Source: a virus | DNA length: 22,733 bases | IMG/VR virus record: IMGVR_UViG_3300023210_000242 | Location: 1 to 22,733 of that record | Direction: 5' to 3' (one strand) | Shown here: positions 11,373 to 22,733 of the stretch, in pieces | How the letters are laid out: the number at the start of each line of letters is the position of its first letter | Position numbering within the stretch: position 1 is the stretch's first letter | Program-made: the position numbers and the translations under genes | The notes under the pieces: model-generated | Databases searched by the model: none | The model's input: the letters and a program-made list of their open reading frames with translations, nothing else | Told to the model about the DNA's origin: nothing

Positions 11373-12155
11373 CTAAGGATTACTTTTGAATACTTGAGAA
11401 TCTACAGTAAACAGTTCTACAGCAGATGTGTTGTCGTTTGTTACTTTAAATTCCATGTAATATCCTGTAGCTCCATAAGACTCAGCAACAGGGTCTTTAA
11501 GCACTAATATATATGCATTATTAGGTATTGTAGATCCAATAGGCAAGAAATTTGATGCATCAACCGTTAACGTTTTTCTATCACTACTAATTGAAGTTAT
11601 AGGACCTACAGCTACAGGTGAGCTGAAGTTGTTAGGAGCAGAAATAAGAGTACTAAAATTTAACTCATCACCTATAGATATTATTCTAGATATTGGAGTG
11701 CTAAATTCAACCGTAATTATACCAGTTGACGCACCTGTTGAAGAAAGTAATTTACCTATTCCTTGTGTAGATCTTAACGCTAAGTTCTCTGTACCTGATA
11801 TTCTTTTAATGTAAGCAAAGAAGCTACCCTCTTTCTTTACGAAATCTGCCTGAGGCATAAAACCTGCTCCCAAATCAGTTACTAAACTTATATCCCATGA
11901 GTCGTCACTCTCTAATTCAATTGTTTTAAAAACTTTAACAGTAGTAGGTTCTTGATTAAAAACACCTGTAAGGGTTGTATCATAATCAACTCCATAATAG
12001 TTGTTACGTCTTTCATTGGTGTTATGTCTGTATAAATTTCCACCTTTAAAGGTATATAAATACTGATTCATTCCTAATATAAAATCAGGGAAGTAGCTAT
12101 AAAAAGAAGGCCATCCCTTTACTGATTCACTATATGTTACTGTGTAATTTTCCAT
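11373..12155 (-). CDS. tail protein resembling the C-terminal part of muzzle/tail-tubular-B-type proteins, 260 aa
   Basis: Probable virion tail protein. The N-terminal motif SESVKGWPSFYSYFPDF, then YTFKGGNLYRHN, YYGVDYDTTLTGVFNQEP and KTIELESDDSWD, is a pattern I recognise from tail proteins of marine and crAss-like phages. It is usually found in or next to the very large beta-propeller-like tail protein. Residues about 143-221 form a beta-rich insert (GDELNFST, ITSISSDRKTLTVDASNF). The end, GYYMEFKVTNDNTSAVELFT, also matches remembered C-termini of such tail proteins. It may therefore be the detached C-terminal domain of the 1524-residue protein encoded upstream. No signal peptide and no Cys. 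Start ATG is preceded by an A-rich AAAAAATAAAAT leader. Function inferred from pattern and context. Confidence 0.7.
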   Translation of the reverse strand: MENYTVTYSESVKGWPSFYSYFPDFILGMNQYLYTFKGGNLYRHNTNERRNNYYGVDYDTTLTGVFNQEPTTVKVFKTIELESDDSWDISLVTDLGAGFMPQADFVKKEGSFFAYIKRISGTENLALRSTQGIGKLLSSTGASTGIITVEFSTPISRIISIGDELNFSTLISAPNNFSSPVAVGPITSISSDRKTLTVDASNFLPIGSTIPNNAYILVLKDPVAESYGATGYYMEFKVTNDNTSAVELFTVDSQVFKSNP

Positions 12156-12165
12156 ATTTTATTTT

Positions 12166-13872
12166 TTAAGTTGGTGGTGCGCAAGTTGTTATAGCGCTCA
12201 CAACTCCGTTTGTTACTGTAATATATTGACCGTTATCCATTATATAGTTTTGGTCTGTAGCTCTAGTCACTCCATCATGGTCTAAGAAAATAGGATTGTT
12301 TAGAGCAGGATAAACATTGACTGCATTCTGAAATCTTGCAAAGAAAAAAGTTCCTGTTGCAGATTGACAGAAAGTACTAGAACCAATAGCATTAGACGTA
12401 AAGCTAGGTAAAGCCGCAGGACATTCTACTGACAAGTTCCATCCTGTACTTGCACATGGACCTAAAACCTCTATAGAGACAGTACCTGGTGATGCGTTTG
12501 GCTTAGGTATAACCATAAGGTTAAATTGAGATTGACCTCCTCTAATATCATCTCCTGTATTAATTGTTATACTTCGAGTAGAAGGGGTGTCTGCTATCCA
12601 TCCATTTGAGTCATAGCCATTAAAAGCGTTATAAACAGATGTATTAGGTGTAGCTGGAACACAGTTGTCTGTAGGGTCTCCTAGTATAGTAAAGGCATTT
12701 GCCACACCACTAGTAGACTGTAAGTTTCCATCTGAAACGCTTGATAGTCTATTGTAAAAAACACCATCATATAATACTCTTATTCCGTCAGGAATACTAG
12801 CAGGGTTAAAATAAATAAGAATAGCTCCAGTATCTGACACTGTAGTTCCTGCATCTATATCTAATTGATATACACCTCTTGAACCTGCAGGTGGTGTCAA
12901 AGTTCCTCCACATGGAAGTCCTGCTGGAGTACATGTTCCAGTAGCTATAACAATACCATACTGTATTTCAATATATGTATTGTCAGCTAATATTACAAAC
13001 TGACTAGTTGCAGTATTGTTTATCGCATTTACAGCTCCACCATCTAGGAATACATAGTTCCCAATCCCTGGAGTAGTAAGTGTTTCAGGCACAAACACAG
13101 TTGGTAGAATTGATGTAACGGTTGCATTTTGTGCAAAATAATAAGTTACTGTGGCATCAGCGCATGTGTCATCTATCTGAACTGGAGACCCTAAAAAACT
13201 ATCTAGCTGAATAGGACAGTCTGTTTGAAAAGAAAAAAATGTTCCTTGTATAGGAGCATAATAATCAATATTAAGAACACTAGCGCTTGATATGTCTTTA
13301 GGTATAACCTGAGTATACACTCTTGTTCCACCGCCTCTTAAATCAAGCTGATTAGAGTTGACTGTAATAGCTTGAGAAGTTCCAGAAGACACATATGTTC
13401 CATCTGTTTGTATGTTATAAACAAGAATTGGTGGCGTGGTCGATGGTGTATTTTGATTTGATCCATAATAAGTTGGCTGTCCAGATGGGGTATTAAGTCC
13501 AACAGGACCTTGGTTATTTCCTATATATGTAAGTTGATTATATGTCTGTCCGTTATATGTAGATAGAACGCCATCTGGAATTTGACCTCCAACAATAGAA
13601 TAAACAATTACAGCTCCAACATCTGTCCCTCCACTTATTTCTGCTAAAAAAGTGCCTCTTATATCTGAAGATTCTCCTGCGATTTCTCCACAAGGCAAAG
13701 CACAAGCAGGGCATATTATTTCAGGTGAAAGAAACCCTCCTACTTGCTCTCTATATATACCATTAAACTGATAGAACCCATCTGGAGATTTAATCAATAA
13801 ATTAACATCATCGTAAACAGATATTGCTGTTGCGAAGTTTTCAGAATCAATAAATTTATTTACTACACTCAT
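12166..13872 (-). CDS. tail fibre/adhesin-like protein with tandem internal duplication, 568 aa
   Basis: Likely surface-exposed virion protein, perhaps receptor-binding. It has an N-terminal piece (1-53, with DDVNLLIKSPDGFYQFNGIY) followed by two homologous beta-rich units. Unit 1 runs from CPACALPCG (54) to about 313, and unit 2 from CTPAGLPCG (314) to the end. Matching landmarks in both units are LPCG, a RG-[TV] strand, IPDG with a following YNGQTYNQL or YDGVFYNRL, an [DI]-RGG turn, VIPK, a CP or ECP motif, and a closing stretch that places Cys before a Pro-containing end. The composition is Thr/Ser/Asn/Gly-rich with paired cysteines, typical of extracellular adhesin-type domains. It lies 22 bases downstream of the large tail protein and 10 bases upstream of the 260-residue tail protein. 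I recognise no enzymatic motif (no depolymerase signature). Start ATG lies in an A-tract leader. Confidence 0.7.
   Translation of the reverse strand: MSVVNKFIDSENFATAISVYDDVNLLIKSPDGFYQFNGIYREQVGGFLSPEIICPACALPCGEIAGESSDIRGTFLAEISGGTDVGAVIVYSIVGGQIPDGVLSTYNGQTYNQLTYIGNNQGPVGLNTPSGQPTYYGSNQNTPSTTPPILVYNIQTDGTYVSSGTSQAITVNSNQLDLRGGGTRVYTQVIPKDISSASVLNIDYYAPIQGTFFSFQTDCPIQLDSFLGSPVQIDDTCADATVTYYFAQNATVTSILPTVFVPETLTTPGIGNYVFLDGGAVNAINNTATSQFVILADNTYIEIQYGIVIATGTCTPAGLPCGGTLTPPAGSRGVYQLDIDAGTTVSDTGAILIYFNPASIPDGIRVLYDGVFYNRLSSVSDGNLQSTSGVANAFTILGDPTDNCVPATPNTSVYNAFNGYDSNGWIADTPSTRSITINTGDDIRGGQSQFNLMVIPKPNASPGTVSIEVLGPCASTGWNLSVECPAALPSFTSNAIGSSTFCQSATGTFFFARFQNAVNVYPALNNPIFLDHDGVTRATDQNYIMDNGQYITVTNGVVSAITTCAPPT
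12169..13713 (-). repeat. Two tandem ~255-260-residue units in the fibre-like protein
   Basis: Unit 1 covers about 13713-12934 and unit 2 about 12933-12169. Identity is visible only at protein level and is concentrated in landmarks (LPCG, IPDG, Y-N/D-G-x-x-Y-N-x-L, RGG, VIPK, Cys-Pro), so the duplication is old or under rapid change. Unit 2 carries Cys pairs in the same places as unit 1. Confidence 0.75.
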
Positions 13873-13894
13873 TTTTTTTAATTAATTTTAATAT

Positions 13895-16800
13895 TTAACA
13901 CGTACCTAAATCGTTTAGCGTTTCATTTGTTGATATTATTTCTATAGCACAAAACTCTTCACCTTGACAAATTGGGCTGCTGCATTGACGAAATATAGTT
14001 TGCTGGTCTCCATCACAATCAATATATGTAATTTGTAAAGTACTGTCATAAGGTATACTTCTATATCTATTACAAACTGGTGGAGGCGGTGGACCTCCAG
14101 TACATCCACAACAAGAATCTAAAGCGGTAACATCATAACATAACTCTATAGGTGTAGGGGTTTTTAAATCCCAAACTAAATACAAATAAGTATTAGCTGT
14201 GTTATAAATGAATTGAGCCTCGTAATTTTCAGGACCTCCTGAAATTGGAGTTGCTGTATTTAATAATGGAAGTAATACATCAATATCTACTTCATCGTAA
14301 TTTGTATTAGTTGATAGGTATTTTAGTTTTCCTGCATTAGGATTAAACTCATAAGTTTGACCTGCATTTTGTCTAATCTGCATAATAACAGTAGATCCTT
14401 CAGGAGGTAAAGCTCCAAAAGAAGCAGGGCCAGTTGACTCTGTAAATAAAGAAACACCATCTGATTCTAAAACAACAGAATTAGTGCTGTAAGGACTTAA
14501 ATAAGATCCTTGTGTCCACCTGTATCTTACATCTGTAGTTAAAGTAGCGTCTCCTTCAAAATTTACAACTATTTCTTTAACTGTTACGTCTGGAGCTATT
14601 GGACATTCAAAATTAATATCATAGTCAGAAACAACAATTGGTGTAGTGGTCACTTCCACATATCTAGGGCTGTTTTGTGTTTTATTAAAAGAAACACTAC
14701 CTATCCCTGAGACATCTTGATTTATAACTTCAGTTCCATTCCATATAGCAGTTATATTTACTTGACCATTTACGTTATATGAAAAAGGTATTGTACCTAT
14801 TACAGTAGTACAATCAAGGTTTAGTGTATAAGGATCTTCTCCATTTGTTACTGTTAACACATATCCGCACTGTTTTTCTTCTGGTGGCTGAGGTATAATT
14901 TGTGTATTAGAGCTTAAAACATATTCATTCATGTATGGATCGTATCCACCTAGTTTTTGAGTTTCAAAAGAAGTTGTAAATAAGTCTCTAAACCAAGAAC
15001 GCATTCCTACTGTAGATATTACATTTAATTGGTCTGTTTTAGCAGATCCTCCTTTTAATTCTATTACTGAACTTCTTTTTGAGTCCGTAAAATAAACATT
15101 ATAACCATAAGAAGTAAAACTCTCTGGATTACTACTTATTCCATACTCTTCAATTCTAGCTAATTGAGTACCAAGAACCTCAGGTACTGATGTTATAGCT
15201 CCACCTGCTGCTGCATCAGAAAGTAAGTTTTTACCTACTAACAAATAAGATATCTTATCTTCTTGAAGAGTTAAGATGTCTGTCTGTCTTGAATGCATTT
15301 TTCTAATCGGTCCGTATGATGTTTCTAATGTTTTAAAATTAGCTAAAGCCAGGTTAAATTGATTTAACTTATTTAAGTTAGTTTCTTGATTAAAAACTCC
15401 ACTATAAGTTACATCAGCAAACCTATGACTTTCTTTGTATTGTTCTTCTGAAACAGATGTTACTTTTTCTCCAAGTTGTATAAATGGTTTTGTAAGTCCA
15501 GATAAAACATGATTCTCTTCCGCTCCATTTCCAAAAGAATAAGAATTAAAAAAAGTTAAATCAACAATAGCAGGGTTTGTTAAAGTTTGGTCTTGGTCAG
15601 CATCTGAGTTTCCTGACAAATGAAGTCCATTTACAATGTCAAATGTCTGTTCATTTTCATAATACAATTCATCATTTGCATCTAATGGCTCAGTTTCAAA
15701 AATAGTTAAAGTAGATGCTCTTTCTACTTGAAGATTAATGCTAGCATAAGAATTTCTTGGTCTAAAACCACCACATCTAGGAGTTCCTGATTGATAGCAA
15801 AATCTTAAAGGCGATGTTGGAGTAGCTTGCTGAAATCCTACATAACTATTACCTGTTGTTGCTAATCGATCCTCAAAAATCTTTATATCATCATACTGAA
15901 TTTGATTATTTTGAGCATCATCATCACTACCTGATGAAATTCCATTTGTAAAATCAATATTATCTCCTAACACCCAATCATGTAAACTATCATAATCATT
16001 TGAAGATATAAATTTTTTGCTCCAATCATAATATCTACTTCCACATCCTCCACCTCGACTATATCTAGTAGCATTAATGGTTATCTCTATAAGAGAACCT
16101 GCTGGAACAGTCCATGGAATATAGTCCCCAGGATTATCCTCATCTTCAATAGAGCATGAAACATTAACTAAAGGCTTATCTCTGCTGCCTCCATCACTAG
16201 ACTCTTCTATTCTAGAATTTGGCGGTTTATTTGCCGCAAAGTTAGAGGGCTTTACTAACATGTAAGTCCCTGTTGGCTGACCACATTCTTGTGATCCTGG
16301 CAAAATATCTCCGTCAATATTTTTTTCACAAAGAAAATCTTTAGCCTCAGATCCAAAACCTAAAACTTTTGTTGTAGCGCAATTTAAAACAGGGCCATTT
16401 GTATCTGCTTTGATGTATAACACATCGTTATCTTTTACCTTGTCCCTATTGTCTCCCTGAAGCAAATAGTAAGCGTCTCCTGTCTCTTCTTCTCTAAAGA
16501 ATATATTGCTGTATATTGTTCTGTAAAGTCCCTTAGACTCTTTAATTACGAATTTATATTTTGTAGCCCAATAAGGAGGGTAGCTATTCATTTGAACCCT
16601 AATACTGTTTTTGTCAACTGAATTAAAGCAGGGAATAAAAATAGTATTATCTCTATCAACTAGGGCAGTACTACTTCTTCCATAGTCATCCATATATACA
16701 ACACCTATTTCATAATCTCTGTTACTGTGTAAACTTTGCTTTGATCCATCTAATGCATAAAAACCTTCTGCAGAAACACAGCTTATATATTCATAAGCAA

Positions 16801-18469
16801 AATTTCCTAATGGAGCTGGAGGCTGTACTGTTTGGTCATATTCTTCAAATTTTAATGCAGGCGCAATAAATGAAATTACATCACTTCCAAAAGAAGATTC
16901 AATAATAAACCCCTGAGGTGTTCCACTTATTCCAAAACCAACTTTTTCCCAGTTTTGTTTAGCTACTGACGAACAAATAAACGAATCAGTAACAGACGTT
17001 CCTGTTTCTGTTCCTCCTGAAATAGGAATACAAGTGTTATTAGCTATAGGAATAAAAGAACTAACAGCATTAATAAATTCTGGGCTAGTAGCCATTTCAT
17101 GAACGCTACCAAAATCTGTTTGAAGATTAAATATGAAATTATATTGAAAAATGTTCTCTGGTTGACTTTGATCGTCATATGATGGGTCTCCACTATAAAC
17201 AGATCCATTGTAATCAAAATCAATTCCAATTTGCGCTCCTTCAACTAACTGTATATTATCGCCTCCAAAATCAATTGATACTTTTGAATTTACAACATTA
17301 ACAGCTCCGTCAATAGTGTATTGAAAACCTTCTCTATCTCCTGCTATACTATCAGATTCTTGAAGCTCAGATATAAGTTGTAAATCATAATCAAGGTAAA
17401 TAGAAGCTCCATCTTTATCGACTATGTCGTAACCATCAATGTAATTACCGTACATCAATCTATTTCCCATAATAGTTTGTGCTTGAGCAACTCTAGGAAC
17501 ATTGTCAAACAATCTTAATAATTGAGCTTCAGGTAATGTTGTAAATATTTTTTGATTTGTAAAAGTTATTGTTTGATCTGTACTGTCTAACCAACCCTCA
17601 TTTTCTTTATTAAATCTTTCAACAACATTTATGCTTTGACTAGTGCTAAATTTAAATAAAACATCTAAATCTTTTACATTTCTACCTCCAGTGTCAAAAG
17701 TTACTTTTACTGAATTAAATATATTTCTCATCCCTTCTTGATTATAATTGCTATAATCAAATCGAAAAGGACCAGGTGTAAAAGCATATTCGCTAAATGG
17801 AGACATCGCTGAGTACTCACCATCTTCATATTGCCATCTATAGGCAAAACTAAGTAGTATTTCCTCCATAAAGTTCTCTCCCCCACCTATTTGAAATTGT
17901 TCTATTTCAGGTGCGTTTAATGGTGGAGCGACAATAACTCCAATATCTTGCTCTGTTATTTGGTCAATTGTTGTACCAGGGTCTGGATTTAGATAAGTTC
18001 TTTCAACATTTATCTTTCTAGGAGCATTTAAGTTGTCTGTAAAAAATAAAAATTCACCTATTAAGTTTATTCCATTAACTAAAAAGTCTTTGTCAAAATT
18101 TAAAATTGAAGTAGAAATTACATGATAATCTAAAACAAATGTTCTTGTATTATATGATGTTATTAAATCTACTTTACCTGTTGAAGAAACAGGGTTAGAT
18201 TCATCACTAACAAACCAATATATTGTTTCATTTGCCCCATCTTCATAAGCTCCAATACATTTAGCACCAGAACTTAATGGCTGACCATTAAAATTAAGTT
18301 GAGCAATTAAATCGTTACCTTTTGAATTTTCAACAGCTCCTATTTCAGTGCCTTCTGTAGAACCCAATCTAACATTTAAAGCATCAATGTATTCACCTTG
18401 AGGTACAAGGCGCTCATCAACACTTTTATTCATTCTCCCTTTTATGAAATTTTTTGAAATATTAGGCAT
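13895..18469 (-). CDS. large tail protein, muzzle / tail-tubular-protein-B type, with adhesin-like C-terminus, 1524 aa
   Basis: Main tail protein of the module. The N-terminus (FIKGRMNKSVDERLVPQGEY, then IDALNVRLGSTEGTEIGAVE) is a signature I know from large 'structural' or 'stabilization' proteins of marine and crAss-like podoviruses, the functional counterparts of T7 gp12 or the crAss muzzle. About residues 1-1190 contain repeated strand-loop units expected of a propeller-like body; AYRWQYEDGEYSAMSPFSEY near 205-230 and LGGYDPYMNEYVLSSN near 1172-1188 are landmarks. After this comes an extension: beta-rich modules with spaced cysteines from about 1196 (KQCGYVLTV), a GGPPPPPV hinge near 1456, and a Cys-rich tail of about 75 residues holding about ten Cys, starting just before the hinge with DSCCGCTGG. 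The extension is probably surface-exposed. The gene starts 1 base after the preceding stop codon. Length is at the high end for this class. Confidence 0.8.
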   Translation of the reverse strand: MPNISKNFIKGRMNKSVDERLVPQGEYIDALNVRLGSTEGTEIGAVENSKGNDLIAQLNFNGQPLSSGAKCIGAYEDGANETIYWFVSDESNPVSSTGKVDLITSYNTRTFVLDYHVISTSILNFDKDFLVNGINLIGEFLFFTDNLNAPRKINVERTYLNPDPGTTIDQITEQDIGVIVAPPLNAPEIEQFQIGGGENFMEEILLSFAYRWQYEDGEYSAMSPFSEYAFTPGPFRFDYSNYNQEGMRNIFNSVKVTFDTGGRNVKDLDVLFKFSTSQSINVVERFNKENEGWLDSTDQTITFTNQKIFTTLPEAQLLRLFDNVPRVAQAQTIMGNRLMYGNYIDGYDIVDKDGASIYLDYDLQLISELQESDSIAGDREGFQYTIDGAVNVVNSKVSIDFGGDNIQLVEGAQIGIDFDYNGSVYSGDPSYDDQSQPENIFQYNFIFNLQTDFGSVHEMATSPEFINAVSSFIPIANNTCIPISGGTETGTSVTDSFICSSVAKQNWEKVGFGISGTPQGFIIESSFGSDVISFIAPALKFEEYDQTVQPPAPLGNFAYEYISCVSAEGFYALDGSKQSLHSNRDYEIGVVYMDDYGRSSTALVDRDNTIFIPCFNSVDKNSIRVQMNSYPPYWATKYKFVIKESKGLYRTIYSNIFFREEETGDAYYLLQGDNRDKVKDNDVLYIKADTNGPVLNCATTKVLGFGSEAKDFLCEKNIDGDILPGSQECGQPTGTYMLVKPSNFAANKPPNSRIEESSDGGSRDKPLVNVSCSIEDEDNPGDYIPWTVPAGSLIEITINATRYSRGGGCGSRYYDWSKKFISSNDYDSLHDWVLGDNIDFTNGISSGSDDDAQNNQIQYDDIKIFEDRLATTGNSYVGFQQATPTSPLRFCYQSGTPRCGGFRPRNSYASINLQVERASTLTIFETEPLDANDELYYENEQTFDIVNGLHLSGNSDADQDQTLTNPAIVDLTFFNSYSFGNGAEENHVLSGLTKPFIQLGEKVTSVSEEQYKESHRFADVTYSGVFNQETNLNKLNQFNLALANFKTLETSYGPIRKMHSRQTDILTLQEDKISYLLVGKNLLSDAAAGGAITSVPEVLGTQLARIEEYGISSNPESFTSYGYNVYFTDSKRSSVIELKGGSAKTDQLNVISTVGMRSWFRDLFTTSFETQKLGGYDPYMNEYVLSSNTQIIPQPPEEKQCGYVLTVTNGEDPYTLNLDCTTVIGTIPFSYNVNGQVNITAIWNGTEVINQDVSGIGSVSFNKTQNSPRYVEVTTTPIVVSDYDINFECPIAPDVTVKEIVVNFEGDATLTTDVRYRWTQGSYLSPYSTNSVVLESDGVSLFTESTGPASFGALPPEGSTVIMQIRQNAGQTYEFNPNAGKLKYLSTNTNYDEVDIDVLLPLLNTATPISGGPENYEAQFIYNTANTYLYLVWDLKTPTPIELCYDVTALDSCCGCTGGPPPPPVCNRYRSIPYDSTLQITYIDCDGDQQTIFRQCSSPICQGEEFCAIEIISTNETLNDLGTC

Positions 18470-18470
18470 A

Positions 18471-19397
18471 TTATTTTATCCATTTATTTTGACCCCTTAA
18501 ATTCATTAATAATCTACTAGGGTGTATATTGCTTAATCTTAATTTTGCATTTCTTAAAAGAGCTGATTTTTCTTTTTTAAGTCTAGTTACTATATATTCT
18601 TGAACTCCAATCTTATTGTTTAATATTGTGTATCTCATATATGCGTAAACAAATTCTTCAAACAGTTTATTTACACTAATTAAAGAGTCATCTCCTTTTT
18701 CCATTCCATCTGAAACATATTCCAAAACACAAAGCTCATCTGCCATGTCTGAGCTGAAATTAATAACTCCACCTGATTTATTTATACTAAACGTAGGGTT
18801 TTGATTAGCAGTCTCTGTGTTAAGTCCATATCTTCCACCTATTGGATATTCAAAATACCATACACCGTTAGAAAAATAACCTTCTTGTCCGTTATAAGGG
18901 CTTTGCTGGTTTAAATATATTGATTTTTTACCTCCTGTAATTCTTTGTAAATCTATTGTAGAAGTAGAAGGTTTAAGTATATTCCCATCATGATCAAATA
19001 ATATTCTACAATTATTGTCCTGCAAATAAGCATCACTCCAATTTGTTTGAATATTTTCACTAAGAGGCATTAGTGTACCATTCTTGTACAAAGATATTCT
19101 TACCCAATTTACATAATCAGAAGGCAACACAAATCTTAATGTGTCACATACTTGTAATTCAAGTATTTTTATTTCTTTTAAAGAATCGTAATTTAATTCT
19201 TGTATAGCTCTTTTTGCGTGAAAAAGTATATTATATCTTTCAACATTATTTATAAGTTTATCGTTACCAACATACATCAACATGAAGTTGTTTACAATAT
19301 CCTCTAATGGTATATATTGATATGAACCCCAATTCTCATCTTCTGTGTTTGGGTTTCCTGTATTCTCGTAGTAAGTATAATCGTTTATATATGCCAT
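18471..19397 (-). CDS. head-tail connector / tail tubular protein A-like (neck) protein, 308 aa
   Basis: Probable adaptor between portal and tail. The motif block LEDIVNNFMLMYVGNDKLIN with RYNILFHAKRAIQELNYDSL (residues 31-73), followed by ILELQVCDTLRFVLPSDYVN with WVRISLYKNG, is a conserved pattern I recall from marine phage genes lying just before the large tail protein. The helix-rich N-terminus followed by a 'LPSDYV'-type strand is also the general plan of T7 gp11-like and ring proteins. The middle has AYLQDNNCRILFDHDG, and the C-terminus is a basic amphipathic helix (RLKKEKSALLRNAKLRLS). The gene starts 2 bases after the previous stop codon. Exact equivalence to a given ring protein cannot be decided by eye. 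Confidence 0.75.
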   Translation of the reverse strand: MAYINDYTYYENTGNPNTEDENWGSYQYIPLEDIVNNFMLMYVGNDKLINNVERYNILFHAKRAIQELNYDSLKEIKILELQVCDTLRFVLPSDYVNWVRISLYKNGTLMPLSENIQTNWSDAYLQDNNCRILFDHDGNILKPSTSTIDLQRITGGKKSIYLNQQSPYNGQEGYFSNGVWYFEYPIGGRYGLNTETANQNPTFSINKSGGVINFSSDMADELCVLEYVSDGMEKGDDSLISVNKLFEEFVYAYMRYTILNNKIGVQEYIVTRLKKEKSALLRNAKLRLSNIHPSRLLMNLRGQNKWIK

Positions 19398-19399
19398 AA

Positions 19400-20389
19400 T
19401 TATTGTCCTTCTTGGTTATTTGCTTCCTGTTCTTCTACTTTCCCAAATTTAGCTACATCCATCTCTCTAACTGAAACCCCTGCATACTGAAGTATTTTGT
19501 TTATCAAGTTTGTCTCATCTGAAGCAGGTAGCTCAAAATCTTGGTAATCCGCAGCTGTCTCATCAAACGATGGCTCACCTCCAGGGAATTGAGCATATGT
19601 CCAATTAGGATCATTGGGGTATCTTACATATTGAGAAACAACTGTTCCTGTGTTGTTTATTGATTCAGGATAAACTGTAATTGTGTTTCCTGTATTTATA
19701 TTATTTGCACCACCTAAAACATAAGCTGGATAGATTAAACTTGGAGATGTAAGATGTGAAGAGTTTAAATAAAATATTTTATTTTGAGAAACTCTTTCTA
19801 TTTCTTTTATTCCTTTTGTACTTGAAATAGAATAAGAAGAACCTACATATCCTCCTGTAAAAAAATCATTAGTTGATATTGTCAATTGAGTCTCACTATC
19901 TACACTTACTACAAAAGCACTTCCTCCAGAATATAACTCTCCTCCTGTAGTATTTACTATTAACTGACCTGCAGCTACTTGACCTCCAGATACAAAATTT
20001 GCAGAAGTATCTATTAAAGTGTTTCCTATCGAACCAAAAGTTAATGTACCTGTTGCTGTGATATTTGGATAATAGTTTATTTTATCTATTAAATAGTAAT
20101 CATTAGGTAAATCAAATAAATTTATACCTACATTAATTAATCCTTTAGTAGAAGAAAAACTATCTATTACTTCAATTAAACCTTTTACTAGATCAGCATA
20201 TTCGCTTCCAGAAATTCTTTTGTTTTGTTTTACTATCTGTGAATTATATTGATAGAAGTAATCTTCAAATAAATCTAACTGTGCTTGTTTTGCGTATAGG
20301 TTGAAATCATTTGGAGTAATATATCCAAAATTATTTTTATTTACAATAGAAAGAACAGTTGCTCTAACTGTATTTATTAATGATGCCAT
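19400..20389 (-). CDS. head-tail connector / neck ring protein, 329 aa
   Basis: Probable portal-proximal neck protein. The N-terminal helices with GYITPNDFNLYAKQAQLDLF and EDYFYQYN (residues 22-49) form a pattern I recognise from marine flavobacterial and crAss-like phage structural genes, always between the capsid and large tail genes. LFDLPNDYYLIDKINYYP follows at 91-108. Residues about 112-192 are a beta-rich insert (TLTFGSIGNTLIDTSANF, VVSVDSETQLTISTNDFF) that resembles similar inserts in two other virion proteins here. After it, the core resumes with KEIERVSQNKIFYLNSSHL and a C-terminal ETNLINKILQYAGVSVRE helix. This is the first gene after the hairpin terminator and promoter at 20408-20451, so it begins the tail sub-operon. 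ATG lies 18 bases from the TATCTTTG box, in an A-rich leader. Confidence 0.75.
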   Translation of the reverse strand: MASLINTVRATVLSIVNKNNFGYITPNDFNLYAKQAQLDLFEDYFYQYNSQIVKQNKRISGSEYADLVKGLIEVIDSFSSTKGLINVGINLFDLPNDYYLIDKINYYPNITATGTLTFGSIGNTLIDTSANFVSGGQVAAGQLIVNTTGGELYSGGSAFVVSVDSETQLTISTNDFFTGGYVGSSYSISSTKGIKEIERVSQNKIFYLNSSHLTSPSLIYPAYVLGGANNINTGNTITVYPESINNTGTVVSQYVRYPNDPNWTYAQFPGGEPSFDETAADYQDFELPASDETNLINKILQYAGVSVREMDVAKFGKVEEQEANNQEGQ

Positions 20390-20407
20390 TCTTTATTTTT
20401 CTTTGAA

Positions 20408-20422
20408 CAAAGATACAAAAAA
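20408..20422 (-). promoter_or_regulatory. Bacteroidota-type promoter (-7 box TATCTTTG) before the tail genes
   Basis: The minus strand reads TTTTTTGTATCTTTG, ending 18 bases before the ATG of the 329-aa gene. TATCTTTG (20415-20408) fits TAnnTTTG. It directly follows, and shares its T-run with, the terminator just upstream. The 15 bases are identical to those at 11358-11372. A convincing -33 TTG is not visible, because that place is occupied by the hairpin. Confidence 0.55.
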
Positions 20423-20451
20423 AAAAGAGGCCTCATTTCTGAAAGCCTCTT
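20417..20451 (-). terminator. Intrinsic terminator after the 248-aa gene
   Basis: On the minus strand a perfect 7-bp stem (AAGAGGC with GCCTCTT, arms 20451-20445 and 20431-20425) encloses a 13-base loop and is followed by a run of ten T (20426-20417, its first T overlapping the stem arm). This is a classical Rho-independent terminator for minus-strand transcription. It lies 29 bases past the stop codon of the 248-residue gene. Confidence 0.9.
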
Positions 20452-20479
20452 CTTGTTTAACACCTATTTAGGTTTGTTT

Positions 20480-21226
20480 TTAATCTATTTTATCTTCTAA
20501 TATTCTTAGAACTTCTAAGCCTTCATCACTTTGAAGAAATGATGCTAAAATAAATAAAGGATCTTCACCATAAGGAACTGTAAGTAATTTCTTTTTGTTT
20601 CCTTTTAAGTTATAATAAACATCTTTTTTATTTTTTAACAATAATAAACCTTCGCTAAAAAATTTAGAACATTTGTTTTGAAGAGATAATAAAGGGTCGT
20701 TAATAGACTCTAAAAAATCCTCAGGATATCTACTCGCAAACAATCTAACATCACGCTTTAATTCTGCAGATGTCATTCTATCTACTTTCACGCCCATTAC
20801 TACTCTAGCTATTGTTTCTAACATTTCAATATCTAATTCTTTAGCTGCAATCATTGCGTCTAAAGCTAAATCCATGCTATCTACATCTACACTAGCGTCT
20901 TTTTCTTTATCAACTTCAATAAAATCATTTCCATTTCCAGGATGATGTGCTAGAAATTTTTGTAAAATTTGGTTTTGTTTTGGAACTCTTAAAAATCCAT
21001 CTTCAAAAATAATTGGTTCTAAAAGAACATTTCCATCTTGCTCATCTTCAAAAATAGTTTTTTGATTCTTAGCATATCGCATAGATCTGTTTTGTCCAGT
21101 TTCTTCGTCAAAATAAAGTAAACTACTTCTTTTAGTATTTCTTGATGGAATTGTGTAGCTCAATGGAGCTTTGTCTCTGGTGAGTTTGTAGCTTTTGTCA
21201 ACAAAAGCCTCTTTGTTTTTTTTCAT
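20480..21226 (-). CDS. conserved phage protein downstream of the capsid gene, unknown function, 248 aa
   Basis: Function unknown. The sequence pattern is one I recall from marine phages, directly downstream of the capsid gene: RYAKNQKTIFEDEQDG (51-66), GFLRVPKQNQILQKFLAHHP (77-96), a central helix with MLETIARVVMG and MTSAELKRDVRLFASRYPED, and a C-terminal VPYGEDPLFILASFLQSDEG stretch. The N-terminus is basic with TIPSRNTKR. It is mostly helical, without membrane segments, with a single Cys. Its isolation between two hairpin terminators suggests that its amount is set separately from both capsid and tail proteins. It could be a minor virion or capsid-assembly protein, or a regulator; the sequence does not decide. 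ATG at 21224-21226 follows a leader TTATATCAA without a recognisable promoter, so expression may depend on read-through past the capsid terminator. Confidence 0.75.
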   Translation of the reverse strand: MKKNKEAFVDKSYKLTRDKAPLSYTIPSRNTKRSSLLYFDEETGQNRSMRYAKNQKTIFEDEQDGNVLLEPIIFEDGFLRVPKQNQILQKFLAHHPGNGNDFIEVDKEKDASVDVDSMDLALDAMIAAKELDIEMLETIARVVMGVKVDRMTSAELKRDVRLFASRYPEDFLESINDPLLSLQNKCSKFFSEGLLLLKNKKDVYYNLKGNKKKLLTVPYGEDPLFILASFLQSDEGLEVLRILEDKID

Positions 21227-21250
21227 TTGATATAATTTAAATTTAATAAA

Positions 21251-21293
21251 TATAAAAGAGAGTAAGTCAGGTTGCAGCTGACCTACCCTCTTT
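21251..21293 (-). terminator. Intrinsic terminator after the major capsid gene
   Basis: On the minus strand a 16-bp stem (arms 21293-21278 and 21270-21255) with two G-U pairs encloses a 7-base loop (CTGCAAC). It is followed by TTTTATATTTATT. The orientation is clear: the two wobble pairs form as G-U only in the minus-strand RNA, and become A-C mismatches in the plus-strand RNA. The stem begins 14 bases after the capsid stop codon. Confidence 0.85.
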
Positions 21294-21307
21294 AATTAAT
21301 CCTTTAT

Positions 21308-22726
21308 CTATTTAAAGATAAAGAAGTTGTTAGCACCTAAAGTACATAAAGCTCTTTCAGATAAGAAGTTTACTTCCATAGCATCTAAGCTAGAAGTAGA
21401 AGCTCCACCTGCTGAACCTGTAATCCAAGTCTTATAACGTCTGTCTTCAGTTTCTGAAGCTCTATAACGAACGTGTAAGAATGGTCTCTTAGCATTTTTG
21501 CCAAGAACTTGATCGTAAACTGTAGTAGAACCTGCTGGAACTAATACTCCGTTTACAGCACCACCTACAATATCACCACGCATAGTTGGATCGTTTAAGT
21601 ATTTCCAGTCTGTTTTGTAGAAGTCATAACCTCTTCGGAATCCAGAGAATCCTAAGTTTAAAGCCATTTCTTCATCATTGTCAAAAAGACCAAATGAAGT
21701 ACCACCTGCATATCCTGCATTTTGAGCAGCTAACATATCGTCAATATCAAATCCAAACTCACGATTCACAAAAAGAACATTCTCTTCAATAGAACCTTGC
21801 TTGTCTAATCTTTGAATGATAGCGTCAAAATCTCCAAGAGTTGTTGGGTTACCACCACTCCATACATTTCCTCGCTCTTCAACAACATAGAAAAGACCTT
21901 CTGATCCTTTGTTACCTACGCCTGATGCAATTCCTTCAACAATTGCTGCTGCTCCTGAACCACCTTCTGCTGGTACTGCTTCAACCATTGCTGTTTCTAA
22001 GTAATCTTCAAAACGTAAACGAGTTTCATGCTCTGATTTTAAATACCATAAGAAACCAGTTGCTCCGTTTTCAGTAGTAACCTCAATCCATCCAATTTGA
22101 GCCATGTCAGAACCACTTACTGCGTAGTGATCTTTAATGATAATTGGTGAGTTAGAGAAAATGCTATCATCAGCTTCTAACTGCCCTTGCATTCCAACAG
22201 ATCCCTTTTGGAATTCTGAACCATAAATAAATAGAGAACATACTACTCCTGCGGCAACACCTTGACCTGCAAATTCATAATAAGCAACATCAATTGTTCC
22301 GTTAACAATATCAACTGCAGTAACAATAGCTTTGTTACTAAGAGTTGAACCTGCTGTACTGTCAGAAATCATAATTGTTTGACCAATTCTAATTGCAATA
22401 CCGCCAGCTCCTGGAACTAAAACATCTCCAATTGTTAAAGTAGCAACTCCTGCTCCTGCTATTGCTGCTGAAGTAACATCTGTATACTTCGTGTGTAGTC
22501 TTCCTTGCTCTGCCCATTTGATAAGGTCTGAGTTAGAAGGCATTTCAGCGCCTACCATTCTTAAGAATGATGCTACTGTTCTGTTTCCATAACGTTCGAA
22601 TTCTTTTTCATAAGTATCTGGAAGATACTGATTTAAGAAATCAAAGTTAGTAATGTAATTTGTCTGTAATAAAACCTGTTCTGAACTTGGTTGTAAGTCA
22701 AACCCAGGTACTGCATCTACTGCCAT
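21308..22726 (-). CDS. major capsid protein (HK97-type fold expected), 472 aa
   Basis: Builds the icosahedral head. The N-terminus (NYITNFDFLNQYLPDTYEKE, FERYGNRTVASFLRMVGAEM, LIKWAEQGRLHTKY) and the later blocks NSPIIIKDHYAVSGSDMAQI, EVTTENGATGFLWYLKSEHE with TRLRFEDYLETAMVE, FGLFDNDEEMALNLGFSGFR, FYKTDWKYLNDPTMRGDI and VYDQVLGKNAKRPFLHVRYR match the major capsid protein pattern I know from marine flavobacterial and crAss-like phages. The last residues, ANNFFIFK, are also typical. Residues about 88-170 form a beta-rich insert (VATLTIGDVLV, IRIGQTIMISDS, IVTAVDIVNGTIDV) with little helical sequence, probably a surface domain. It starts 7 bases from the window end, so portal, protease and scaffold are not visible here. 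There is a strong terminator after the gene and no Shine-Dalgarno sequence before it. Confidence 0.9.
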   Translation of the reverse strand: MAVDAVPGFDLQPSSEQVLLQTNYITNFDFLNQYLPDTYEKEFERYGNRTVASFLRMVGAEMPSNSDLIKWAEQGRLHTKYTDVTSAAIAGAGVATLTIGDVLVPGAGGIAIRIGQTIMISDSTAGSTLSNKAIVTAVDIVNGTIDVAYYEFAGQGVAAGVVCSLFIYGSEFQKGSVGMQGQLEADDSIFSNSPIIIKDHYAVSGSDMAQIGWIEVTTENGATGFLWYLKSEHETRLRFEDYLETAMVEAVPAEGGSGAAAIVEGIASGVGNKGSEGLFYVVEERGNVWSGGNPTTLGDFDAIIQRLDKQGSIEENVLFVNREFGFDIDDMLAAQNAGYAGGTSFGLFDNDEEMALNLGFSGFRRGYDFYKTDWKYLNDPTMRGDIVGGAVNGVLVPAGSTTVYDQVLGKNAKRPFLHVRYRASETEDRRYKTWITGSAGGASTSSLDAMEVNFLSERALCTLGANNFFIFK

Positions 22727-22733
22727 AATTTTT

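Follow-up and report, generated by a model that had tools for sequence, protein, structure and literature searches.

A conserved hairpin behind the major capsid gene of crAss-like phages and its possible part in setting head-protein amounts

The window, that is, the whole stretch of viral DNA analysed here (22,733 bases), carries its late genes on the minus strand, with the major capsid gene followed by a 248-aa post-capsid gene and the first tail gene (Table 1). A near-identical IMG/VR contig of 43,134 bases (G001, locus L004; 7,421 of 7,423 overlapping bases are the same) extends the window upstream and adds a 95-aa gene, a terminase-size gene, an 811-aa portal-size gene and a 364-aa gene ahead of the capsid gene, terminase and portal being named by gene position, as in relatives. 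The capsid protein matched 85 phage records, among them a Calle_1 homologue annotated as major capsid protein. The 248-aa protein also matched 85 records, and its per-organism tally was equal to that of the capsid protein. Relatives by capsid match included Manatee Spring phage, Maribacter phage Panino, Elemovirus, and Cellulophaga phages, and a 260-aa protein of the window matched the crAss muzzle C-terminal domain (PF25729). The order terminase, portal, structural gene, capsid, post-capsid gene, and tail is common to these relatives and L004. By its shared late-gene proteins and this order, the window virus is a crAss-like phage in the broad sense. The records of phi38:1 and phi13:2 name the families Pervagoviridae and Pachyviridae, respectively, and the order name is absent from both.

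A long head operon, running from terminase through portal and the 364-aa gene, ends with the capsid gene. TAnnTTTG was found upstream of the capsid gene (up to 200 nt) in none of the 79 loci with more than 120 nt there, and the gene is preceded by an A-rich leader similar to that of the 248-aa gene. Because the capsid gene ends a long operon and has no TAnnTTTG nearby, the hairpin that follows it (hairpin 1) would also mark the 3' end of the head-gene message.

Table 1 Features of the capsid to tail-gene region of the window
Feature	Coordinates	Strand	Basis
Major capsid protein gene, 472 aa	21308..22726	-	PHROG 13704 virion structural protein, E 1.1e-102
Hairpin 1, 16 bp, loop 7	21255..21293	-	Scan; z -5.17; hairpin in 62/62 distinct relatives
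Weak, interrupted U-tract of hairpin 1	21245..21254	-	UUUUAUAUUUAUU, including the UUU that closes the stem
Leader before the 248-aa gene, almost A/T only, without TAnnTTTG	21227..21244	-	Sequence read
248-aa post-capsid gene	20480..21226	-	PHROG 34748, unknown function; related to crAss001 gp33
Hairpin 2, second terminator stem	20422..20454	-	Scan
Ten-T run of terminator 2	20417..20426	-	Sequence read
TATCTTTG, Bacteroidota -7 promoter element	20408..20415	-	Fits TAHHTTTG; TAnnTTTG in 53/54 relatives
First tail gene, 329-aa virion structural protein	19400..20389	-	PHROG 14543 head and packaging

Hairpin 1 begins 14 nt past the capsid stop codon, and its 16 pairs agree with the stem that the first-pass annotation had placed after this gene. 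It provides the stable, G+C-containing stem-loop of an intrinsic terminator (minimum free energy -21.7 kcal/mol), and none of 200 shuffles was equally good. Its U-tract, UUUUAUAUUUAUU, is interrupted, and three of the first four U belong to the stem. An Rfam search of the window returned no match. The 81-nt gap between the capsid gene and the 248-aa gene contains no TAnnTTTG, so the earlier statement that no promoter is evident here holds for this motif. Across the 62 relatives introduced below, the leader before the 248-aa gene is nearly free of G, with A in 95% at -12, T in 89% at -4, and A in 85% at -1, and this G-poor stretch with its fixed A/T positions is possibly a translation signal.

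Behind the 248-aa gene, hairpin 2 has a 7-bp core (AAGAGGC/GCCTCTT) that the scan lengthened to 13 pairs; with its ten T it combines the stem and the U-tract of an intrinsic terminator (z -2.72; 4 of 200 shuffles were equally good). Both this hairpin and its fusion to a TAnnTTTG element for the tail genes had been read from the sequence at the outset, and both were confirmed. TATCTTTG adjoins the T-run, lies 26 nt upstream of the tail-gene ATG (20389), and fits the refined -7 consensus of Flavobacterium johnsoniae, TAHHTTTG, as given in passages of PMC6847099. The -33 element TTTG of a Bacteroidota sigma-ABfr promoter was absent about 20 nt upstream of TATCTTTG, a stretch occupied by the hairpin arm and the T-run, and TATCTTTG is therefore promoter-like by its -7 element alone. 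Few terminator-like sites (1, 3, 2, and 3 in four genomes) had a promoter-like site no farther than 40 nt away according to a genome-wide terminator script, which gave mostly weak sites and was used for joined sites only, and the tail-gene junction was among them in three of the four genomes. At the tail-gene junction of W01 both motifs are present, but their overlap was too tight for the script to score a joined site.

Conservation was assessed with capsid homologues from IMG/VR, of which 80 loci were kept among at least 600 candidates; together with three named phages they made 83 loci. The 248-aa gene was not found in five of them, whose contigs break off no more than 145 nt from the capsid end, and four others have a gene inserted in the gap behind the capsid gene (gap 1). 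Removal of near-duplicates left 62 distinct gaps of 40-150 nt. All 62 contain a hairpin with E -9.9 or better (median -18.4), and z was below -2 in 59 of them, compared with one of 62 for an equal-length control inside the capsid 3' end and 15 of 62 for one inside the 5' part of the 248-aa gene. Site counts alone gave no excess over shuffled expectation in positions 12000-22733, either for terminator-like sites (6 found vs 4.6 expected) or for sigma-70-like sites (46 vs 47.4). We take the hairpins as real because of their position and conservation, not because of bare counts.

The promoter motif is also unevenly distributed among the relatives. Upstream of the tail gene (within 110 nt), TAnnTTTG was present in 53 of 54 loci, mostly 21-29 nt before the ATG, the exception being L044. 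Within gap 1, it was found in only two of 62, namely L001 (Manatee phage) and L003 (elemoE), both of them named relatives, of which the set has three. Since the element in these two gaps is TATCTTTG, read-through is not the sole solution in the group.

The U-tracts of the two sites differ in strength. Over 54 pairs, the median of the longest T-run was 6 at site 1 (gap 1) and 9 at site 2, the latter taken from the last 110 nt (paired Wilcoxon p 1.1e-7), and runs of six or more T occurred in 41 of 62 gaps and before 52 of 54 tail genes. When T was counted only near hairpin 1, six or more were found in 38 of 62 relatives and four or more in 57, leaving 24 without a run of six at the post-capsid hairpin. 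T-scores pointed the same way (medians 4.53 vs 5.88, site 1 lower in 47 of 54; 4.13 vs 6.15 in L004), with the reservation that their anchors, the hairpin at site 1 and the longest T-run at site 2, favour site 2; the T-run comparison is less biased. Given these differences, and UUUUAUAUUUAUU vs ten U in the window, site 2 has the look of a firm terminator, site 1 that of a weaker one. Hairpins that resemble one another in sequence, with a TACCCTCG or TACCCCTG arm and no long U-tract, occupy the post-capsid gaps of L009, L017, L019, L025, L029, L031, L045, L060, and L063; they recur in otherwise different gaps, as if spread by exchange.

Inserted genes occur on both sides of the post-capsid gene. 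In L032, L049, L050, and L061, the insert between the capsid and post-capsid genes has a hairpin on either side (z -4.8 to -1.7 over the eight sites). These inserts are short and lysine-rich, L061 has two, and among the four loci TAHHTTTG is confined to the L061 insert. Between the 248-aa and tail genes, where the window has no extra gene, the space exceeds 200 nt in 32 loci, with TAHHTTTG within its first 160 nt in 30 and close to the tail gene in 31. As the motif stands at both ends of the enlarged space, the extra genes lie between terminator-promoter joints, and this space is an insertion hot spot with ready-made expression units. Many of the extra genes belong to a family of roughly 92 aa (consensus MxKFLxI...QLISL) flanked by terminator and TATCTTTG joints; examples are found at L046:8415-8693, L028:7183-8988, L036:6998-7830, and L064:2444-3303. 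Searches assigned the genes inserted after the 248-aa gene to no clear family (best PHROG 418, E 0.0075; best solved structure, E 0.087).

We then asked how far the post-capsid hairpin extends among other crAss-like lineages, using three further sets of loci named after their query records (Oafivirinae-type and Boorivirinae-type being the subfamily names of these records). The 63 crAss001-type loci gave 45 distinct gaps, the rest lacking a gene, a start or an end, having an odd gap length or being near-duplicates. The hairpin had E < -9 in all 45 and z < -2 in 42; ten had six or more T at the hairpin and none had TAnnTTTG in the gap. From 80 Oafivirinae-type loci, 41 distinct ones remained after removal of 7 without both genes and 32 near-duplicates, with E < -9 in 40, z < -2 in 38, a T-run of four or more in one and TAnnTTTG in none. 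In an alignment of 35 of these 41, both sides had changed in 14 of 14 predicted pairs. The motif CAACA-(T)ACTAAT lies 3' of the stem and occurred 28 times inside the 41 gaps vs 5 times elsewhere in the same loci. Rfam matched no family in the ten loci tested. The stem is thus kept where the U-tract is gone, which leaves no intrinsic terminator possible in this lineage of gut phages. The 80 Boorivirinae-type loci yielded 38 distinct gaps (dropped were 22 gaps over 200 nt, 9 loci without both genes, 1 without a start, and 10 near-duplicates; of the 38, L319, L324, and L332 come from contigs that the Oafivirinae set also includes), with E < -9 in 37, z < -2 in 31, six or more T in 5 and TAnnTTTG in none.

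Named records with the hairpin are phi38:1, Calle_1, phi13:2, crAss001, cr55_1, cr130_1, cr7_1, cr53_1, and cr118_1, the last of which additionally holds TAATTTTG in its gap. phi38:1 and Calle_1 show the layout of the window: a hairpin, no TAnnTTTG, the post-capsid gene, and then a hairpin with TATATTTG before the tail gene. Stems with z -1.2 were found in ProJPt-Bp1 (E -13.8) and cr4_1 (E -13.6). The 26-nt post-capsid gap of crAss002 (Intestiviridae) has no hairpin, in FpV4 an HNH gene follows the capsid gene and a strong hairpin is absent, and cr113_1 combines a GIY-YIG gene with a weak stem (E -8.8). The post-capsid hairpin is therefore widespread, though not universal, and it is the hairpin that is conserved, while its quality as a terminator differs by lineage.

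The genes behind the hairpin appear to be related as well. Profiles of the post-capsid proteins linked the Oafivirinae-type and crAss001-type families (98%, E 1.8e-13) and, in its C-terminal part, the 248-aa family and crAss001 gp33 (hhalign, 79.7%, E 1.5e-5); the link between the window's branch and the Oafivirinae-type family was weak (45.8%). From these links, it is likely that the hairpin lies between the same gene pair in each group. The 248-aa protein had no Pfam match and no relative among solved structures (best E 0.27), and its AlphaFold2 model (mean pLDDT 82.7, pTM 0.51) had no Foldseek match in the PDB at E <= 0.001. The post-capsid protein is labelled hypothetical in phi38:1 and elemoE, where most neighbours are labelled structural, and gp33 is absent as a term from the main text of the crAss001 virion atlas (PMC10172136). 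At most, these two points hint at a scaffold or assembly factor. The records of seven Suoliviridae loci (L184, L186, L187, L188, L190, L191, and L353) label the post-capsid gene as RecA protein, for which the profile match between the Oafivirinae-type family and crAss001 gp33 gives no support. Some Suoliviridae post-capsid translations carry in-frame stops, as expected for lineages that recode TAG. The gene reads 113, 188, and 199 aa in L060, L064, and L065, and the remainder continues in another frame in L060; these short forms could be real breaks or assembly errors.

The layout of the window is, in our judgement, somewhat better explained than not by a read-through unit like that of phage T7. 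In such a unit, head-operon transcripts would reach their 3' end at hairpin 1, which would act as a leaky intrinsic terminator in the window's branch, and the 248-aa gene, having no host-type promoter, would be made from the transcripts that pass it. Hairpin 2 with its ten T would then stop the read-through transcripts efficiently, and TATCTTTG directly after it would restart transcription for the tail genes. The anatomy, its conservation, the presence and absence of the -7 element, and the stronger U-tract at site 2 were observed, while the share of transcripts that would stop at hairpin 1, the reliance of the 248-aa gene on read-through, and any consequence for protein dosage are inferred.

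According to the passages of PMC5592923 on the T7 late region, gene 10 (capsid) is followed by the terminator Tphi, genes 11 and 12, and a promoter before gene 13. T7 as described there has a stop signal right after the capsid gene, next genes that are promoterless and reached by read-through only, and then a new promoter. The window matches this order of parts with a hairpin, the lack of TAnnTTTG for the next gene, and TATCTTTG farther on, with promoters judged by TAnnTTTG only and with a weak U-tract. T7 has its own polymerase and a promoter before gene 10, whereas the window has a host-type promoter, a single gene in the box, and no TAnnTTTG near the capsid gene. Closer at hand, crAss001 (Steigviridae) shares the hairpin behind its capsid gene gp32 (E -19.5), a 71-nt gap without TAnnTTTG, and a related next-gene family. 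It differs by a broken U-tract, UUUUUCUUUUUU, followed by a GGAG ribosome site, by having no hairpin gap directly after gp33, and by a strong terminator-like site after gp36. Suoliviridae (Oafivirinae-type, L192-L271) likewise have a strong hairpin in the same place, no TAnnTTTG and a next gene related to gp33, but no U-tract; their hairpin has an internal loop and is followed by a conserved single-stranded tail, CAACATACTAAT, before the start codon. In filamentous phages, which are unrelated to the window's virus, the major coat gene VIII is followed by a terminator and then by gene III, which is expressed at a lower level and has its own weak promoter.

The first-pass annotation had proposed a stepwise dosage device in which most transcripts end after the capsid gene. 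The proposal is supported in part. Its frame stands: the box of two hairpins, the lack of TAnnTTTG for the 248-aa gene, and the joining of hairpin 2 to such an element are all conserved. A strong first stop fares less well, given that its U-tract is weaker than that of site 2, with more than a third of relatives lacking a six-T run, that hairpins stand on both sides of the inserted gene in four relatives, and that the U-tract is missing in 40 of 41 Oafivirinae-type loci. Nor does it sit easily with the crAss001 auxiliary capsid protein gp36, which is present at nine per asymmetric unit, like the major capsid protein (PMC10172136). The gene for gp36 lies beyond the hairpin (gp33-gp36 gaps of 4, -1, and 31 nt), and the 31-nt gap before it contains no TAHHTTTG. 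A stop that ended most transcripts would thus be costly there, unless translation compensates.

These same observations feed a different explanation, which we regard as a doubtful but serious candidate: that the main task of the post-capsid hairpin is to stabilise or process the capsid message at its 3' end rather than to terminate transcription. Transcripts would then run across both the capsid and the post-capsid gene, cleavage or exonuclease stalling at the hairpin would leave a long-lived capsid message, and single lineages would have gained or lost U-tracts. The Oafivirinae-type set, with its near-constant hairpin, almost complete lack of T-runs, changes on both sides of every predicted pair and tail CAACATACTAAT, argues for this, as do the scarcity of runs of six or more T in the Boorivirinae-type and crAss001-type sets, the equimolar gp36 and the double hairpins around inserted genes. 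The retention of the stem where the U-tract was lost is the strongest sign of selection on the stem itself. On the other side, the six or more T at the hairpin in 38 of the 62 relatives of the window's branch give it the classical form of a terminator, which a stabiliser would not need. Tentatively, one old cis-acting RNA hairpin across several crAss-like families may set the ratio of capsid to post-capsid protein by shielding or cutting the capsid message, with the terminator-grade U-tract acquired later in some lineages, the window's among them, and the gp33-family gene may itself read or need the hairpin.

It is improbable that the 248-aa gene instead has its own promoter of a type other than TAnnTTTG, used by a phage-encoded or modified polymerase or formed by a degenerate -7 element, of which TATATTTA at 21254-21247 would be an example. 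Crassvirus virions contain a phage-encoded RNA polymerase, and gp47, gp49, and gp50 of crAss001 are annotated as such. In the 62 relatives, conservation is strong over the 30 nt that precede the gene, and L001 and L003 have TATCTTTG at the same spot. However, the conserved leader, A-rich with almost no G, resembles a Bacteroidota translation leader as described in passages of PMC6847099, and the capsid gene has a similar A-rich leader. Finally, chance hairpins in an AT-rich intergenic region would account for a late-region total of terminator-like matches that equals shuffled expectation, but are contradicted by the conservation of the hairpin in all 62 distinct relatives and are scarcely credible.

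Crass-like phages rank with the most abundant viruses in gut and water, and the dosing of their head proteins is little described in the literature searched; within the limited set of papers covered, none dealt with a hairpin or terminator behind the capsid gene of such phages. The natural variants found here, with a U-tract, a broken U-tract, none, or an added -7 promoter, offer testable sites. Cultured hosts exist for crAss-like phages, and RNA-seq of cultures with crAss001, crAss002, and DAC15 has already been done, as described in PMC12118408. The virus may use the post-capsid hairpin to set the amount of each head protein.
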